Positions 2,919-8,713 of a DNA stretch of 8,713 nt are shown here, piece by piece. The notes below the pieces were generated by a model. That model did no database searches and was not told the origin of the DNA. It saw only the letters and a list, made by a program, of their open reading frames with translations. This DNA comes from a bacterium (GTDB lineage Bacteria; Patescibacteriota; Microgenomatia; UBA8517). Position 1 is the stretch's first letter. The number at the start of each line of letters is the position of its first letter. The translations under genes were made by a program, and so were the position numbers. The DNA lies in contig JAKAKU010000133.1 in NCBI GenBank assembly GCA_021824385.1, forward strand, positions 1 through 8,713. The letters run 5' to 3'.

Positions 2919-3980
2919 TTATATGGATTGTATTTTACCTGAAACCCGGCCCGCTTGCAAGGTAAGAGCCAAAAGAATGGCTGTGGACAAAAGAGACGAC
3001 CCTCCGTATGAAACAAGCGGCAGGGGAATACCGGTAATTGGAAGCATTCCCATGTTCATTCCGATATGAACAAAAATTTGCAAAAAGAAGCTGGCAAATA
3101 CTCCTGAAATATATGCTTTCCGAGTTGGTGAGCTTGTTTTATCCAAAAAAGTAATAAACCGAAGAAGAATTGCAAAAAGTGAAAGTAAGCAAATGGCCGA
3201 CCCCACGAATCCGAGCTCTTCTGAAATTGCCGCAAACATAAAGTCTGTATGTTTTTCAGGCAAAAATGAGAGCTGTGTTTGAATTCCATTCCCCAAGCCC
3301 CGCCCTGAAAACATTCCAGATCCTACAGCAATCACCGACTGAATTGAGTTATACCCCTGCCCCATTGGATCACTTCCTGGAGACAAAATAGAATACACCC
3401 GGTCTTTTTGATATGGAGCAAGAAAGGACCATAAAATTGGTGACATAATTGCAAAAAACACGATCGCATAGACGTAGTATTTTCGTGAGATATTCAGTGA
3501 AAAAATTACTCCTCCAAACCCCGCTAAGGTTAAAAGGGTTACTCCAAGTGACGGTTGTAAAAAAATAAGGATCAGCGGCAGTCCCATGAGAGGGACACTG
3601 AGGAGAAATCGTTTTAGGGTGAGGGTTCGCGAAGCAAAGAAATGCGCGAAAAACAAAATCAAAAATGGCCGTACGATTTCAGCAGGTTGTAAATTAAAGC
3701 TCCCTATAGGAATCCAACGAATGGTACCTCGTGTTACTTGGCCAATAACAATGGGGAGGATAAGCAACAGAATACTCCCTCCATATAAAAAACCAGAAAA
3801 CGCGCCCAATGTATCAAAGTCGGTATGTAAAAAAACAATAAAAAATATAATTGCAAACAAAATGTACACGTAATATTGGGGAAATACCTGTGGGGCAATT
3901 GAATGAAGCATAAGAAATCCGAGAAGCAAACAAAGGATAATCGGGGCAAAAACGATATCAAACAGGAACAGCTTTTTCAT
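2919..3980 (-). CDS. rodA: SEDS-family peptidoglycan polymerase (RodA/FtsW type)
   Basis: SEDS proteins polymerise glycan strands from lipid II in the cytoplasmic membrane, paired with a class B penicillin-binding protein. The 353-residue protein is almost entirely hydrophobic segments, about ten membrane helices. Family landmarks are GTIRWIPIGSFNLQPAEIVRP (near 85-105), the loop DPMGQGYNSIQSVIAVGSGMFSGRGLG, LPEKHTDFMFAAISEELGF with the predicted catalytic Asp246, and the C-terminal PLPLVSYGGSSLL. RodA is favoured over FtsW by the HTDF context and by length, but the assignment is not firm; ftsZ lies nearby. The usual QPDLG motif reads QPSLG, with Ser144 replacing Asp. The gene starts 6 nt after the ileS stop with no ribosome binding site, so translation may be coupled or leader-independent. 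Confidence 0.9.
   Translation of the reverse strand: MKKLFLFDIVFAPIILCLLLGFLMLHSIAPQVFPQYYVYILFAIIFFIVFLHTDFDTLGAFSGFLYGGSILLLILPIVIGQVTRGTIRWIPIGSFNLQPAEIVRPFLILFFAHFFASRTLTLKRFLLSVPLMGLPLILIFLQPSLGVTLLTLAGFGGVIFSLNISRKYYVYAIVFFAIMSPILWSFLAPYQKDRVYSILSPGSDPMGQGYNSIQSVIAVGSGMFSGRGLGNGIQTQLSFLPEKHTDFMFAAISEELGFVGSAICLLSLFAILLRFITFLDKTSSPTRKAYISGVFASFFLQIFVHIGMNMGMLPITGIPLPLVSYGGSSLLSTAILLALTLQAGRVSGKIQSI
2932..2960 (-). promoter_or_regulatory. Possible promoter of rplU inside the 3' end of rodA
   Basis: On the minus strand TTGCAA (2960-2955) and TAAAAT (2937-2932) are separated by 17 nt, matching the consensus at 4/6 and 5/6. The start would be near 2925, giving a leader of about 15 nt for rplU. 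This would let the ribosomal protein pair be made at higher levels than the upstream rodA and ileS. Confidence 0.42.
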
Positions 3981-3986
3981 GCATTG

Positions 3987-6815
3987 TTAAACCGGAGTTA
4001 CTTTAAACTCGCCTTTTGTGAGATTCCTAACCAAGGCTTCATTTTTTATAAATTCTTCGTATTCGTGAGGCCAGTCAGTGAGAGACACATCAACCAGTTG
4101 GTTTAGGTCGGTTTTCAGCTCTTTTCGCATTGACTGAATATCGCGAACAAGCTTTCGTGCTTCTCCTTTTTGTACATTAAGGTTATTCTCTGAAAATGCG
4201 GTATCCGTTGAAACTGCTTCAAAAACAGATGCTTCGCCTTTATAAATAAATTGTTCTACATTCGTTTCTTCTTGAAGAATACTCACGTATTCTGGCGAAA
4301 TTTCAGTTGGCCCACGGTACTCAAATTTCCTAACGGGGGTGCGAACCGGAACATTGTGTGCTTTTCTCTCCATATGAACAATTCCTGCCATATCTCGAAT
4401 CTGTTGCATTGAAATTTCCATAGAAATTTGTATTTCACTTTCGTCTAAAACAGGCCAGTTCTCTAGGTGAACTGAAGGCTCTCCCGTTAAGTTTCGATAC
4501 ATTTCCTCAGTGGTGAATGGAATTAACGGAGCAGTTAGTTTACAAAACGTGTTCAGAACATAAAAACAGGTTTCGTAAAAGTCATTTTTATCTTGGACGT
4601 TTTTTGCACTTGCACCAACGCGGTCACGGCTTCTCCTGATATACCAGTTTGACAAAATATCAACAAAACTCCGTGTCGACTCAACATATGAAATTGTGTC
4701 AAATGACTCAAGTGATTGAGTTACCTCTTTGGCGTAACTGGTAAGTTTGGATCGAATCCACAAATCGAGTACATTTTTAGACACCTCAAGTTTCATATTT
4801 GGATTCCATTCGTCGGAAAGTGCATAGGTTACAAAAAAGTTATACACATTCCAGAGAGTCAAAAGCGTTGTTTTTAGCTGATTTCGATAATGTTCCTCGG
4901 AAATAATCATATCCTCCCCCTTCATTACATTTCCTCCCAAAAGGTACAAACGAAGTGCATCTCCTCCGTATTTTGTGATCATCTCTTTTGGATCGGGATA
5001 ATTTCCAAAGTTTTTACTCATTTTGCGACCGTCAGTCCCAAGCACTACCCCCGTTACTGATACATTTTTGAAGGCCGGTGACTTGTAGAGCGCCGCTCCA
5101 ATAACATGAAGTACATAAAACCACGCTCGAATTTGCCCGGTGTATTCAACAATAAAGTCTGGAGGGAAAAAGTCTTCGAGCTTTTCTTCGGTATTGAATG
5201 GAAAATGTCGCTCAGCAAAAGATGCTGATCCTGCTTCAATCCAACTATCCAAGACTTCTGAAACACGGTGCATTTGTTTTCCACATTTTTCGCATGCAAA
5301 AGTAACCTCATCAATTTCTGGCTTATGAAGATCAGTTAACCTTTTACCAGATTTTTCCTCAATTTCCGATAGCGAACCAACAACTACCCGCTCCCCACAT
5401 TCACATTCCCAAACAGGTACTGGAGAACCCCAATAGCGGCTTCTACTGATGCACCAATCGGGAGCGGCCTCCATGCTTTTCAAAAACCTTCCGTACTTAA
5501 AGTGCTCTGGAAACCATGCTACCTTTTCGTTCGTCTCTTTCATCAGAGGCTTTAATTTTTGAACATCTACATACCATGCATTTTGTGGAGCGTAAAAAAG
5601 CCGTGTATGACAGCGCCAACAATTTGGAATTGTATGGGTATGAGACTCTTCTTTATACATAAGGCCGCGCTTCACCAAATCCTCATTTACCGCTTTGTTG
5701 GCCTTTAAGTAATACATTCCACCAAACTGTGGAACATTGTCTTTAATCGTGCCTTCTTCATCAACGTGCATCACGATTTGGATATGTTCCTTTTTCATGA
5801 CTTCTAAGTCTTCTTCTCCATAAGCGGCTATGGTTACAATGCCGGTGCCTTCTTCGGCTGTCACGAAGTCGGCAGGGATTATCACAAAAGCACGTTTTCC
5901 TTCGTCAATTTTAAAGTAGTCATAGTGTGCTTCAAAAGATTTTCCAACCAATTCTGTTCCTTTCATTTCTGAAACTATTTCGTAAGGAGTCTCAGTAAGC
6001 TTCGAAAGGGTCGTTTTTGCCAAAATATAATATTCACTCCCCTGTTTTACTTTTACGTAGGTAAGACTTGGGTTAACTGCAAGAGCGGGTGTTGCAATTT
6101 TATTCCATGGAGTTGTGGACCACGCGAGAAAATAGGTATCTTCCTCACCGACTACTTTATATTTATAGGTATTGGCCGGTTCTGTAATTTCTTTGTAATT
6201 ATCGGGGTCCATGGCAACTTCAAAATTAGAAATCGGAGTAGAACAATGAGGGCAATACAGTGAAACTCTGAGGCCTTTGTAAATAAAATCTTTTTCATAC
6301 ATTGACTTGAATACCCACAAAACACTTTCCATATAAGGCGTGTCCATGGTTTTGTATGCATTTTCAAAATCCACCCAGCGACCGATATGGTCAACATACC
6401 ATTCCCACTCTGAAGATACATCGGCTACATAGAGCTTACATTCATCAATAAACTTTTTGACACCAATCTTTTCTTCAATATCTTTTTTACGAGTAATGCC
6501 AAGCTTGGTTTCTACTTTGTTCTCAGCGGGGAGTCCGTGACAATCCCACCCCCACACACGCTCAACATGGTAACCTTGCATGGTTTTGAATCGGGGAAAG
6601 ACATCTTTGGGGATACTTGCCAATAGTGTTCCATAATGAGGAAGACCGGTTATAAATGGAGGTCCATCCAAAAAAGTCCATTTTTTTGTCTTTGGATTCT
6701 TAGCTACTGATTTTTCAAAAATGGTATTTTTCTTCCAATACTCAATCGTTTGCTGTTCCATTTTTGGAAAATCCGCGCTTGGGTTTACTGGTTGAAAGGC
6801 GTGTTTAGAGCTCAT
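3987..6815 (-). CDS. ileS: Isoleucyl-tRNA synthetase, eukaryote-like class with variant HIGH motif
   Basis: This enzyme charges tRNA-Ile with isoleucine using ATP and edits valine errors. The 942-residue protein starts at ATG 6815 (MSSKHAFQPVNP). The class I signature GLPHYGT (57-63) stands where HIGH is expected: His60 is present, but the second His is Thr63. WGWDCHGLPAE (88-98) fits the eukaryote-like type. CPHC (188-191) is a likely zinc ribbon. The CP1 editing domain carries AWSTTPWNKIATPAL (231-245) and EEGTGIVTIAAYGEEDL. Cys pairs in NCWRC, CECG and CEKCG suggest metal knuckles. The KMSKS loop is KMSKN (598-602). The anticodon-binding domain follows with LSNWYIRRSRDR. Length is normal. 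A GTG 15 codons upstream overlaps a hairpin and is rejected as start. The gene heads the rodA-rplU-rpmA-parB string. Confidence 0.96.
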   Translation of the reverse strand: MSSKHAFQPVNPSADFPKMEQQTIEYWKKNTIFEKSVAKNPKTKKWTFLDGPPFITGLPHYGTLLASIPKDVFPRFKTMQGYHVERVWGWDCHGLPAENKVETKLGITRKKDIEEKIGVKKFIDECKLYVADVSSEWEWYVDHIGRWVDFENAYKTMDTPYMESVLWVFKSMYEKDFIYKGLRVSLYCPHCSTPISNFEVAMDPDNYKEITEPANTYKYKVVGEEDTYFLAWSTTPWNKIATPALAVNPSLTYVKVKQGSEYYILAKTTLSKLTETPYEIVSEMKGTELVGKSFEAHYDYFKIDEGKRAFVIIPADFVTAEEGTGIVTIAAYGEEDLEVMKKEHIQIVMHVDEEGTIKDNVPQFGGMYYLKANKAVNEDLVKRGLMYKEESHTHTIPNCWRCHTRLFYAPQNAWYVDVQKLKPLMKETNEKVAWFPEHFKYGRFLKSMEAAPDWCISRSRYWGSPVPVWECECGERVVVGSLSEIEEKSGKRLTDLHKPEIDEVTFACEKCGKQMHRVSEVLDSWIEAGSASFAERHFPFNTEEKLEDFFPPDFIVEYTGQIRAWFYVLHVIGAALYKSPAFKNVSVTGVVLGTDGRKMSKNFGNYPDPKEMITKYGGDALRLYLLGGNVMKGEDMIISEEHYRNQLKTTLLTLWNVYNFFVTYALSDEWNPNMKLEVSKNVLDLWIRSKLTSYAKEVTQSLESFDTISYVESTRSFVDILSNWYIRRSRDRVGASAKNVQDKNDFYETCFYVLNTFCKLTAPLIPFTTEEMYRNLTGEPSVHLENWPVLDESEIQISMEISMQQIRDMAGIVHMERKAHNVPVRTPVRKFEYRGPTEISPEYVSILQEETNVEQFIYKGEASVFEAVSTDTAFSENNLNVQKGEARKLVRDIQSMRKELKTDLNQLVDVSLTDWPHEYEEFIKNEALVRNLTKGEFKVTPV

Positions 6816-6829
6816 AGGTCGATGTGGGT

Positions 6830-6835
6830 ATTTTA
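6830..6835 (-). promoter_or_regulatory. Possible -10 box of ileS
   Basis: TAAAAT on the minus strand ends 14 nt before the ileS ATG, predicting a start near 6823 and a leader of about 8 nt. The hexamer 17 nt upstream (GCCACA) matches the -35 consensus at only 3/6. A terminator for the upstream RNA ends at 6861, so ileS needs its own promoter or readthrough. A small hairpin (AAAAG/CTTTT with loop GGAG, near 6842-6855) lies between. Confidence 0.35.
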
Positions 6836-6860
6836 CACCAAAAGCTCCCTTTTGTGGCAC

Positions 6861-6893
6861 TAAAAAGCGGCGTTATCAAATTGACAACGCCGC
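6861..6893 (-). terminator. Strong intrinsic terminator ending the ftsZ-ileS intergenic RNA
   Basis: Read leftward, GCGGCGTT (6893-6886) pairs perfectly with AACGCCGC (6874-6867). An inner TCA/TGA pairing extends the stem past one mismatch, and TTTTTA (6866-6861) follows directly. The U tract is on the minus-strand side only, so it serves leftward transcription arriving from the ftsZ side. It lies just before the ileS promoter area. Confidence 0.9.
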
Positions 6894-7131
6894 ATAATAA
6901 AGGGCTAAAAGCTCCACGTCACGTCGGTATCGTATCCGTGTTGAGCAGTTTTTGGGTCTTGAAAAGAATGTTGTCCTTTTCAATTGTTGGCTATGAAAGC
7001 CGCGCTTTCATTCCGAACCCATCCCCCCAGTTTTAAAATTTACATTGGAAGACCAACCCTAGGGCAACACTGCCCATCGTTTTTGAAATAATACTAATTT
7101 CAAACTCGAGTTTCGGTAATCTGAGTGAATT

Positions 7132-7182
7132 GATCTTCCTAAGCAGTGCACCAAGATAGGTGCACTAGTTAAGAAGGTCAAA
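7132..7182 (-). repeat. Hairpin repeat unit B inside the predicted RNA
   Basis: Arms 7132-7152 and 7159-7179 pair at 19 of 21 positions in the transcript, with mismatches at 7134/7177 and 7143/7168 and a 6-nt loop. The 17 nt at 7166-7182 differ by one base from 7521-7537 in unit A. Confidence 0.8.
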
Positions 7183-7486
7183 GGGGGGGAGAAAAGATCC
7201 TCCCCCCTCTATTCTCGATAAATTTATTCAAGAAGGGTAACTCCTTGAATGAAAGATTTATGTGGTTTTTATGCCACCTACGCGCGGTGAGAATACCTCC
7301 AGGCAAGAATAATTCCTCCCCAGTTCAATGCTTTGTATACGCTATCCAGTTTTAAACTGAATGCTTCAACGTTTGATGTATGACATATTGTCGGTCGATC
7401 AAACGTACACAAAGTTATTTAGTTGAATATCTCACCGTAACGCTTTTTAAAACGTCACGTTTTTAAGAAAGACAAGCATTTTGTGC

Positions 7487-7537
7487 TTGGCCTCCTTGCC
7501 TACCACACAATAAAATGTGATAGGTAAGAAGGTCAAA
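7487..7537 (-). repeat. Hairpin repeat unit A inside the predicted RNA
   Basis: The minus strand forms a stem of 21 positions (7516-7536 with 7487-7509) with 19 pairs and two A-C mismatches, around a 6-nt loop at 7510-7515. Its 5' arm begins TTTGACCTTCTTA, identical to unit B. The 3' arm contains AAGGAGG. The outer three pairs overlap a neighbouring small hairpin (7473-7489), so the two compete at their edge. Confidence 0.8.
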
Positions 7538-7720
7538 AAAAGTCTGAGCTGTTAATGAGCTAGAAAAATTTATGATAGTGCCCTTCGGAAACAGTGCACT
7601 TTCGTGCTCTGACCGCTATTTAAGACGCTTATGTCTCTAAAGAAATCATCCTGGCCCGAAGGGCACATACATGGCCTGCGAGCAGGCCCTTTTGGAGAGC
7701 CCTTTCGACAAGTTGACTAT

Positions 7721-7748
7721 ATAATAGCAGAAACTTTGGAAATGTCAA
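7721..7748 (-). promoter_or_regulatory. Promoter of the intergenic structured RNA
   Basis: On the minus strand a perfect TTGACA (7748-7743) is followed after 16 nt by TATTAT (7726-7721), a 5/6 match. The predicted start is A at 7714 or 7713. It is the best-looking promoter in the window and lies 24 nt after the ftsZ stop. No terminator separates ftsZ from it, so ftsZ transcripts could also read through. Confidence 0.7.
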
Positions 7749-7771
7749 GTACTATGGGTGGAAATGAAGGC

Positions 7772-8713
7772 TTAGTGAACTTTTCGAAGGAATGCGGGGA
7801 TTTCAAAATCGTCTTCATATTCTTCCTTGTTCTCCTCGGGCGCTTGGTTTGGAGTTGAGCTAAAAACTGAGCGTGGAGTTTCTTCCTGTACTGATCTCGG
7901 TTGTTGTTGCTGTTGGATTTGCTCCTCGCGCGGATCGTTCATCATACTGCCACCTCTTGGCTCAGCGATAACCCCTTCCATTCGCATCGGCTCCATTGGA
8001 CGTGCAAACTTGGTGAGCCTTGCTTGAGTTTCGTCAAATCCGGTAGCCACAACGGTGATACGAACTTGGTCTGACATATCATCTTTAATAACTGATCCGA
8101 AGATAACATTGGCATCAGGATCTGCGGCACTACTAATAATACGGGCTGCTTCATCGAGCTCATACATGGTAAGGTCGGATCCACCAGTGACATTGAAGAG
8201 AACTCCGCGCGCACCATCAATAGAAAGATCTAACAGAGGCGAACTGATTGCAGCCCGTGCTGCCATTTGTGCTCTGTTCTCTCCCACACCAACTCCAATT
8301 CCCAAAAGCGCGGTTCCGGCGTCTTTCATAATGGTCTTAACGTCAGCAAAGTCAACGTTAACCAAACCGGGGGTCGTAATAATTTCTGCTATTCCTGTAA
8401 CTGCTTGTCCAAGAACTCCGTCGACAATTTTAAATGCTTCAATAAGCGTCATCTTGCGATCAACGACGTCCATAAGGCGTTGATTTGGAATTACAATCAG
8501 CGTGTCGACTTCATCGCGAAGTCGATCGATTCCTTCTTCAGCGTGGTTACTGCGCCTCGCTCCTTCAAATGCAAATGGTTTTGTAACAATTCCAACAGTG
8601 AGTGCACCAATCTCTTTTGCAATGCGAGCGACAACTGGGGAAGCACCGGTTCCAGTTCCACCACCCATACCTGCCGTGATAAACACCATATCGGAGTCTT
8701 GCAAAAGCTCTTT
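7772..8713 (-). CDS. ftsZ: Cell division protein FtsZ, 3' part (5' end beyond the window)
   Basis: FtsZ is the tubulin-like GTPase that forms the division ring. The visible 313 residues continue without a start to the right edge (first codons read Lys-Glu-Leu-Leu-Gln-Asp). The tubulin signature GGGTGTG is at visible residues 17-23. The synergy (T7) loop NVDFADV (119-125) carries both catalytic Asp residues. A C-terminal polymerisation subdomain follows. The last part is a low-complexity Gln/Glu/Pro-rich linker (about 250-300) with a five-Gln run, ending in the conserved tail DDFEIPAFLRKVH that binds FtsA or similar membrane partners. The N-terminal third or less is missing because of the window cut, not truncation. 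A promoter for an unrelated-looking RNA starts 24 nt downstream, with no terminator in between. Confidence 0.97.
   Translation of the reverse strand, partial: KELLQDSDMVFITAGMGGGTGTGASPVVARIAKEIGALTVGIVTKPFAFEGARRSNHAEEGIDRLRDEVDTLIVIPNQRLMDVVDRKMTLIEAFKIVDGVLGQAVTGIAEIITTPGLVNVDFADVKTIMKDAGTALLGIGVGVGENRAQMAARAAISSPLLDLSIDGARGVLFNVTGGSDLTMYELDEAARIISSAADPDANVIFGSVIKDDMSDQVRITVVATGFDETQARLTKFARPMEPMRMEGVIAEPRGGSMMNDPREEQIQQQQQPRSVQEETPRSVFSSTPNQAPEENKEEYEDDFEIPAFLRKVH

Follow-up and report, generated by a model that had tools for sequence, protein, structure and literature searches.

The window analyzed here is an entire contig of 8,713 nt, to which all coordinates refer, from an uncultured bacterium whose nearest named relatives are Candidatus Woesebacteria; its source is one incomplete assembly of 927 kb, 68% complete. 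Between ftsZ and ileS the contig holds a gap at 6861-7771 (Table 1), and the same order of ftsZ, gap and ileS is common in the family, 20 of the 29 loci read having an ileS-like match no more than 1.5 kb after ftsZ. Although the ileS frame opens with a GTG at 6860, translation probably begins further in, at an ATG at 6815-6813 (residue 16), which fits alignments that begin at residues 12 to 22. The first 18 residues of the ftsZ fragment (8660-8713) match positions 15325-15378 of contig C111 of the same genome, so the remainder of ftsZ probably lies on that contig, as overlapping contig ends would give. A tRNA at 284-357, the sole Rfam match at gathering score in the window, is a tRNA-Val about 6.5 kb from the structured stretch described below. 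Further along, a 104-residue frame on the plus strand (1035-1349) without a Pfam match seems by eye to include a membrane segment, and a terminator-like hairpin lies 3' of it at 1363-1386.

Table 1. Features of the ftsZ-ileS region of the window
Feature	Position	Strand	Basis or remark
ftsZ, 3' part (contig ends inside the gene)	7772..8713	-	Pfam PF00091, PF12327
Promoter-like site: TTGACA, 16-nt spacer, TATTAT, TG ahead of the second hexamer	7721..7748	-	predicted, 11/12
Predicted RNA, about 850 nt (852)	6865..7716	-	ends inferred from the positions of promoter and terminator
5' hairpin, first element of the 5' domain	7675..7712	-	local fold and pairwise structure alignment
S2 domain block: long bulged stem, then UAUCAU	7558..7676	-	alignment and covariance model R2
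First copy of the TTTGACCTTC hairpin	7485..7540	-	direct repeat; model R1 alignment and search
Hairpin H1, CAAGGAG in the 5' arm	7226..7250	-	counterpart in UBA5941
Hairpin H2, G-run/C-run stem	7184..7207	-	counterpart in UBA5941
Second copy of the TTTGACCTTC hairpin (H3)	7128..7184	-	DNA similarity to UBA5941
Terminator-like hairpin, 12 bp, then TTTTT	6867..6893	-	predicted; T-run reaches 6862
TAAAAT, -10-like element downstream of the terminator	6830..6835	-	predicted promoter of ileS
ileS frame	3987..6860	-	Pfam PF00133, PF08264; gene name from the first reading

The original prediction for this DNA was a large structured RNA flanked by a strong promoter and a strong terminator on the minus strand. 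Both ends were borne out: the promoter-like site is the best among the 20 of the whole window, and the stem of the terminator-like hairpin is the longest among the window's 14 terminator-like sites. The 20 promoter-like sites compare with 16.8 in shuffled sequence, so that the quality of this site, not the number of sites, is exceptional. The extent first proposed, 6861-7748, needed only a slight correction, to a unit running from 7748 to about 6862.

Folding of the minus-strand RNA (854 nt folded) gave an energy of -309.9 kcal/mol compared to -219.5 ± 8.2 for 20 shuffles (z = -11.0), and on 40 shuffles the 852-nt stretch reached z = -11.9, compared to -1.4 to 0.5 for four coding controls of equal length from the window. 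The antisense strand folded less well (-286.0 kcal/mol), and in all three genomes in which such a unit was found (see below) the promoter-bearing strand folds better than its complement. When 300-nt segments were scored with a regression trained on the relative G024, six consecutive segments starting at 7663 to 6913 scored -3.2 to -7.1, four of them at or below -5, and the remainder of the window scored 1.6 to -3.6, with its lowest value at 4813. The minimum-energy fold of the 852-nt RNA comprises 29 uninterrupted helices of at least 5 bp, including 15 of at least 8 bp, in agreement with the "some 16" inverted repeats initially noted. An exact-seed repeat finder run over 6700-7900 returned two pairs only, neither of them a hairpin inside the stretch. 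The base of S2 is a 12-bp helix (7666-7655 with 7589-7578), and the most conserved sequence of the TTTGACCTTC element is its 5' arm. In the fold of the whole RNA, part of the 5' hairpin can pair instead with 6899-6916 near the 3' end; the corresponding closing stem of the two ends (7705-7693 with 6916-6899) is not claimed here and has no clear counterpart in either related genome.

The view that the stretch holds no credible protein gene was upheld by the lack of a Pfam match in the two open reading frames of at least 60 residues that overlap the gap. Frames of the gap of at least 25 residues, compared with the homologous units, gave no convincing similarity either (best E = 0.18). An Rfam search had been proposed together with the original prediction; none of 4,227 families reached its gathering cutoff in the structured stretch, and RNase P RNA, tmRNA and other known families were not matched over cutoff at the locus. 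Matches below threshold (E up to 10) were to unrelated small RNAs, the best of them at E = 0.026 in the window (21.1 bits against a cutoff of 174.8), E = 0.044 in UBA925 and E = 0.16 in UBA5941. As candidates for the locus, RNase P RNA and tmRNA were also set aside on their own matches over cutoff elsewhere in the genome, to RF00010 on contig C15 (115.2 bits) and in full to RF00023 on contig C57 (125.8 bits). OLE, GOLLD, ROOL and HEARO were absent from the matches with E up to 10 in all three structured stretches, as were RF00169 and RF00013, and no T-box was found at the locus among matches at gathering score or with E up to 10.

A match to ftsZ was present in 46 of 50 family genomes, and the best 29 loci besides the window's own were read. 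A strongly structured gap follows ftsZ in two of the 29, and these belong to the two genomes nearest by FtsZ: UBA5941, of the same genus (88%), and UBA925, of another genus of the family (79%). The predicted RNAs measure 852 nt in the window, 863 nt in UBA5941 and 266 nt in UBA925. Structure is strong in both relatives, at z = -7.5 for the unit and -8.0 for the whole gap of UBA5941, and at z = -9.0 for 320 nt around the unit and -8.8 for the whole gap of UBA925. Both units also have a promoter-like site at the corresponding place (TTGACA-16-TATACT, 11/12, and TTGACA-17-TAATAT, 10/12, respectively), and the numbers of such sites in these two stretches do not exceed those in shuffles (2 against 1.6 and 1 against 1.6). 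UBA5941 ends its unit with a clear terminator-like hairpin like that of the window; in UBA925 the terminator has a weak U-run on the strand of the RNA and there is a better one on the opposite strand. Upstream of the UBA925 unit, at about 3068-3310 of the locus (L062), lies a stretch of about 240 nt that resembles a T-arm by eye (CTAGGG and CCCTAG around TGCAAGT), with no ARAGORN match and no excess folding (z = -0.9).

Strong structure was not found in the other loci read. Among these 27, 11 had gaps with z of 0.2 to -2.2, nine had no ileS match and best 300-nt segments of -2.0 to -2.7, and seven had gaps shorter than 75 nt, which were not folded. The unit is not essential in the family, because it was not found in the other relatives read. 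The "housekeeping context" initially suggested by the neighboring genes is accordingly weak, with the unit in three close relatives and the other 27 loci lacking either strong structure or room for it. The central proposal fared better: the stretch is best read as a gene for a large structured RNA, as its predicted structure is found again in the corresponding gaps of the two nearest relatives, in part with compensatory changes.

The two long RNAs share the order of their parts, which is 5' hairpin, S2 with UAUCAU, a hairpin, a divergent middle, H1, H2, H3, further hairpins and the terminator. Similarity of their DNA was found only in the H3 hairpin (78% over 58 nt, E = 5e-6), an element that the window carries in two copies. 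An alignment by structure and sequence scored 690, a value that nine rotations (at most 603), the antisense strand (572) and 24 shuffles (at most 574) did not reach; a simpler aligner gave a consensus energy of -127.8, where eight rotations gave -32 to -108, the antisense strand -63 and 20 shuffles -36 to -67. Pairing is also kept in alignments made blind to structure. In S2, 25 of the 32 pairs of the window also pair in UBA5941 and two more are gapped, compared to 8 to 17 kept after sliding the alignment by 1 to 6 columns; for the RNA as a whole the count is 128 of 235 pairs, against 72 to 112 in slid alignments. In H3, 91.7% of cells are paired compared to 35 to 45% after sliding.

Evidence for compensatory change is more local. 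All nine pairs of the outer S2 stem are kept and four of them have changed on both sides, each to a Watson-Crick pair, and among three copies of H3 (two of them from the window's RNA) four of 20 pairs have both-sided changes, a count reached by nine of 500 shuffles. Overall, 31 of 65 both-sided changes are complementary (48%, compared to 32 to 53% in slid alignments), and in S2 six of 12 (compared to two to seven of 9 to 14), with no excess in either case. Since both-sided changes overall do not rise above the slid controls, compensation is seen in places (the outer S2 stem and H3) and not throughout. Both-sided changes counted on structure-fitted alignments were discarded as evidence, shuffles giving as many.

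The short unit of UBA925 resembles the beginning of the long RNAs. Folded alone, its first 121 nt show the same layout, with a hairpin at the 5' end and then a long bulged stem. Pairwise alignment of the 5' domains, each time against 60 shuffles, scored 167 for the window and UBA5941 (shuffles at most 110; 6.9 standard deviations above), 129 for the window and UBA925 (at most 107; 4.2) and 126 for UBA5941 and UBA925 (at most 109; 3.4), and when the three domains were compared with unrelated stretches, the 15 results fell between -1.2 and 1.7 standard deviations. A two-sequence covariance model of the window and UBA5941 (R2), run unfiltered on the three loci, found its best match outside the training sequences at 3376-3476 of UBA925, over all 121 positions. 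This match is weak (11.6 bits, E = 0.31), and unrelated 20-kb stretches reach 11.2 bits with R2 and 10.6 bits with R3; because the score is close to background, the evidence lies in the place and register of the match and not in its score. In a three-row alignment, 14 of 24 pairs are changed on both sides and 98.6% of cells are paired, neither figure being reached in 500 shuffles, and both are biased towards structure, the pairs having been preselected as kept in two sequences and the third row fitted to them. From place and shape we infer that the short unit of UBA925 is homologous to the long RNAs.

Searches further afield returned little beyond these three. A blastn search of the RNA against 186 genomes, the window's own included, gave the self match and otherwise short matches (best E = 0.0018 among the matches listed), and neither the 50,697 phage nor the 72,556 plasmid records searched contained a match; a search of viral contigs with the pattern of one hairpin also yielded nothing. 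The window's 68%-complete genome contains no second copy. The UBA5941 unit itself was found by synteny and then by the 58-nt local alignment and the fold; blastn of whole genomes did not place the stretch among the matches listed, which for UBA5941 were two, both elsewhere in its genome. It is thus an example of how large RNAs can escape sequence search. Covariance models were run on 373 class genomes sampled evenly from a larger group. With R1, built on the TTTGACCTTC hairpin, six genomes had a match with E of at most 0.05. Besides the window's genome and UBA5941 these comprised four more, all rejected: in G184, which gave the strongest of the four matches (E = 6e-6), it is a terminator-like hairpin that follows a T-run, and in the remaining three it lies inside a coding frame. 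R2 recovered only its two source genomes. R3 at E of at most 0.1 matched four of the 373, the window's genome, UBA5941 and two others (G291, E = 3.4e-4, and G095, E = 0.06), both rejected as lying inside open frames; a 38-genome search with R3 added G014, where the match lies in a frame (E = 0.10), and G019 (E = 0.55). UBA925 is not among the R3 matches in the 373-genome search, and its membership of that set is not evident; the 38 genomes did not include it. The three models together gave no credible further homolog in the 373 class genomes, and homologs beyond close kin may be invisible to them.

The stretch immediately precedes ileS, shares its strand and has a terminator-like hairpin that ends 6 nt before the ileS frame, an arrangement that would suit a cis-acting leader in which transcription from the promoter at 7748 reads through and the hairpin at 6893-6867 serves as an isoleucine-responsive attenuator in the manner of a T-box. 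Known ileS T-box leaders likewise sit upstream of ileS and end in a terminator-like hairpin. They are several times smaller than the ftsZ-ileS RNA, however, and the stretch has no match over cutoff to a T-box or any other Rfam family. In addition, ileS appears to have a -10-like element of its own downstream of the terminator. In all 20 loci tested, the 75 nt ahead of the first aligned ileS codon contain the pattern [GC]TA[AC]AAT, compared to a mean of 1.28 and a maximum of 5 in shuffles, although it was chosen after reading those same 20 loci and a narrower first pattern gave 13 of 20; its distribution suggests that ileS transcripts in the family may be short-leadered or leaderless. In 18 of the 20 loci the gap either has no strong structure or is shorter than 75 nt. 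As the element is there with or without a structured unit, ileS most likely has its own promoter and the RNA is a separate unit. The genes behind the unit also differ: the ileS of UBA5941 shares only 36% identity with the window's gene over the 180 residues compared, that of UBA925 has 66% and others reach 75%, so the RNA follows descent and not the type of ileS. We therefore regard a leader of ileS as unlikely. Seen from the other side, the stretch follows ftsZ in all three genomes and the interval from ftsZ to the promoter at 7748 is free of terminator-like sites, which would be expected if the stems formed the structured 3' end of the ftsZ transcript, protecting the mRNA or stopping transcription, and there were no separate RNA gene. 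The TTGACA promoter-like site that stands between ftsZ and the unit in all three genomes argues against such an arrangement, and 850 nt of paired structure far exceeds what a terminator or stabilizer needs; we give it little credence.

A very divergent form of a known housekeeping RNA below the Rfam cutoff, such as SRP RNA or 6S RNA, has in its favor that both are unaccounted for in the family. RF00169 (small SRP RNA) exceeded its cutoff in none of 47 family genomes compared to nine of 14 control genomes, a difference in which the model may simply be blind here, and RF00013 (6S RNA) in none of 47 compared to four of 14, with no match in the window's genome. The SRP RNA of the family is either too divergent for RF00169 or missing, and at 266 nt the short unit falls within the size range of large SRP RNAs. 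Against this, the absence is family-wide yet the RNA was found in three genomes only, neither family was listed for the three stretches, the SRP motif patterns searched for were absent from all three RNAs, and RNase P RNA and tmRNA are found elsewhere in the genome. Of the explanations considered, we would be most surprised by this one. (The one weak RF00169 match, in G017 at 25.9 bits, falls within a 507-residue open reading frame of the opposite strand.) A decayed mobile element, or a spacer rich in hairpins, without RNA function could account for the few relatives that carry the unit, the hardly conserved sequence, the spread in length from 266 to 863 nt and the level of both-sided changes overall, which is not above controls. 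It fits poorly with a unit that has no second copy in the genome and no phage or plasmid match, that is headed by a promoter-like site in all three cases and whose pairs are kept more often than in slid controls despite the changing sequence, and we think it improbable.

We therefore prefer to read the gap as the gene of a leftward-transcribed, untranslated RNA of about 850 nt, predicted to be a folded scaffold for protein or RNA partners, and put the probability of this reading at roughly 0.55. The pattern of change is likely that of a fast-evolving structural noncoding RNA. Transcription would run leftward from the RNA's own promoter at 7748 and end at the hairpin at 6893-6867, and the product would accumulate as a stable, separate molecule. 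Its 5' domain (hairpin and long bulged stem) may be the functional core, and the 3' part with the repeated TTTGACCTTC hairpin an extension that adds binding sites. Such an RNA would act in trans and not as a leader of ileS. The scaffold role is suggested by analogy with other large RNAs and by the repeated TTTGACCTTC hairpin; fast sequence change combined with kept pairing would point to recognition by shape and not to a base-pairing regulator with fixed targets. More tentatively, we speculate that these units represent a new CPR RNA family fixed between ftsZ and ileS, in which a 266-nt form has grown in one genus to an 850-nt ornate RNA by repeated hairpins, serving as an RNA or RNA-protein scaffold in genomes of about 1 Mb; this broader history seems to us possible but somewhat doubtful.

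Size and hairpin density had brought OLE, GOLLD, HEARO and ROOL to mind, and in these two respects the likeness stands, whereas membership in or kinship with any of them is unsupported, with no Rfam match. HEARO has an Rfam family, and the genes of the OLE neighborhood are not among the window's Pfam-scanned frames. According to PMC12286853, OLE, GOLLD and ROOL have Rfam families and form homo-oligomeric RNA complexes, and GOLLD and ROOL are without known function. GOLLD is like the ftsZ-ileS RNA in exceeding 800 nt, in being densely paired and in having conserved and variable parts, but its conserved part is the 3' region (PMC12286853) while that of the ftsZ-ileS RNA is the 5' domain. ROOL is likewise large (659 nt in one described case) and complex in fold, with no known protein partner (PMC12286853), and in a strain of Ligilactobacillus salivarius its abundance is reported to match that of 16S rRNA (PMC12286853, citing PMC5643018 on a 520-nt RNA). 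GOLLD and ROOL are described as carried by phages or prophages, often near tRNA islands (PMC12286853); the ftsZ-ileS RNA, in contrast, has no phage gene among the ten Pfam-scanned frames of its window and no tRNA island, only the one tRNA-Val. ROOL in particular is phage- or prophage-borne, whereas the present RNA occupies the ftsZ-ileS gap and matches no Rfam family. OLE is a large ornate RNA known to act with proteins (studies cited in PMC12286853), and it too differs from the ftsZ-ileS RNA, which matches no Rfam model. We thus class the RNA as a candidate new family of a known kind, the large structured RNAs, and the family rests on three sequences. A literature search on structured or noncoding RNA in the candidate phyla radiation, Woesebacteria and Patescibacteria found no account of it among the matches listed.

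Large structured bacterial RNAs are little studied, and the present candidate would offer a good case for asking what such RNAs do, as 850 nt of noncoding DNA would be a notable investment for a genome of about 1 Mb. The series of 266, 852 and 863 nt in three genomes suggests a core and its expansion. The slot after ftsZ is itself of some interest: within one bacterial family it holds at least two distant ileS-like types, at 29 to 40% and 66 to 75% identity to that of the window over the parts compared, hinting that ileS may have been replaced in place.

The relative G024 was scanned for folded regions over 900,000 of its 901,682 bases, and 8 of 5,998 300-nt segments had z of -5 or below. The longest folded run consists of four segments with z of -3.1 to -4.5 at 489601-490350 (750 nt; L181 9601-10350). 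It folds better on the minus strand and has frames of at most 109 residues, with no Rfam match, no promoter-like site near it and no match to R1 or R3 beyond background. Other folded spots lie at 52, 62-64, 352, 377, 698 and 855 kb, and G024 may conceivably harbor a moved homolog of the RNA. In L160 of the same genome, positions 5400-5552 form a 153-nt folded unit (z = -8.5 for the 300-nt segment) with TTGACT and TATAAT-like hexamers ahead of it, between frames that resemble sortase and radA by eye. It matches neither Rfam nor R2 and has no credible DNA match beyond itself in 50 family genomes. A divergent 6S RNA and a compact relative of the 5' domain are both conceivable identities, and we do not claim kinship; aligned with the three 5' domains it scored 2.1 to 3.1 standard deviations above shuffles, compared to -1.2 to 1.7 for five controls each.
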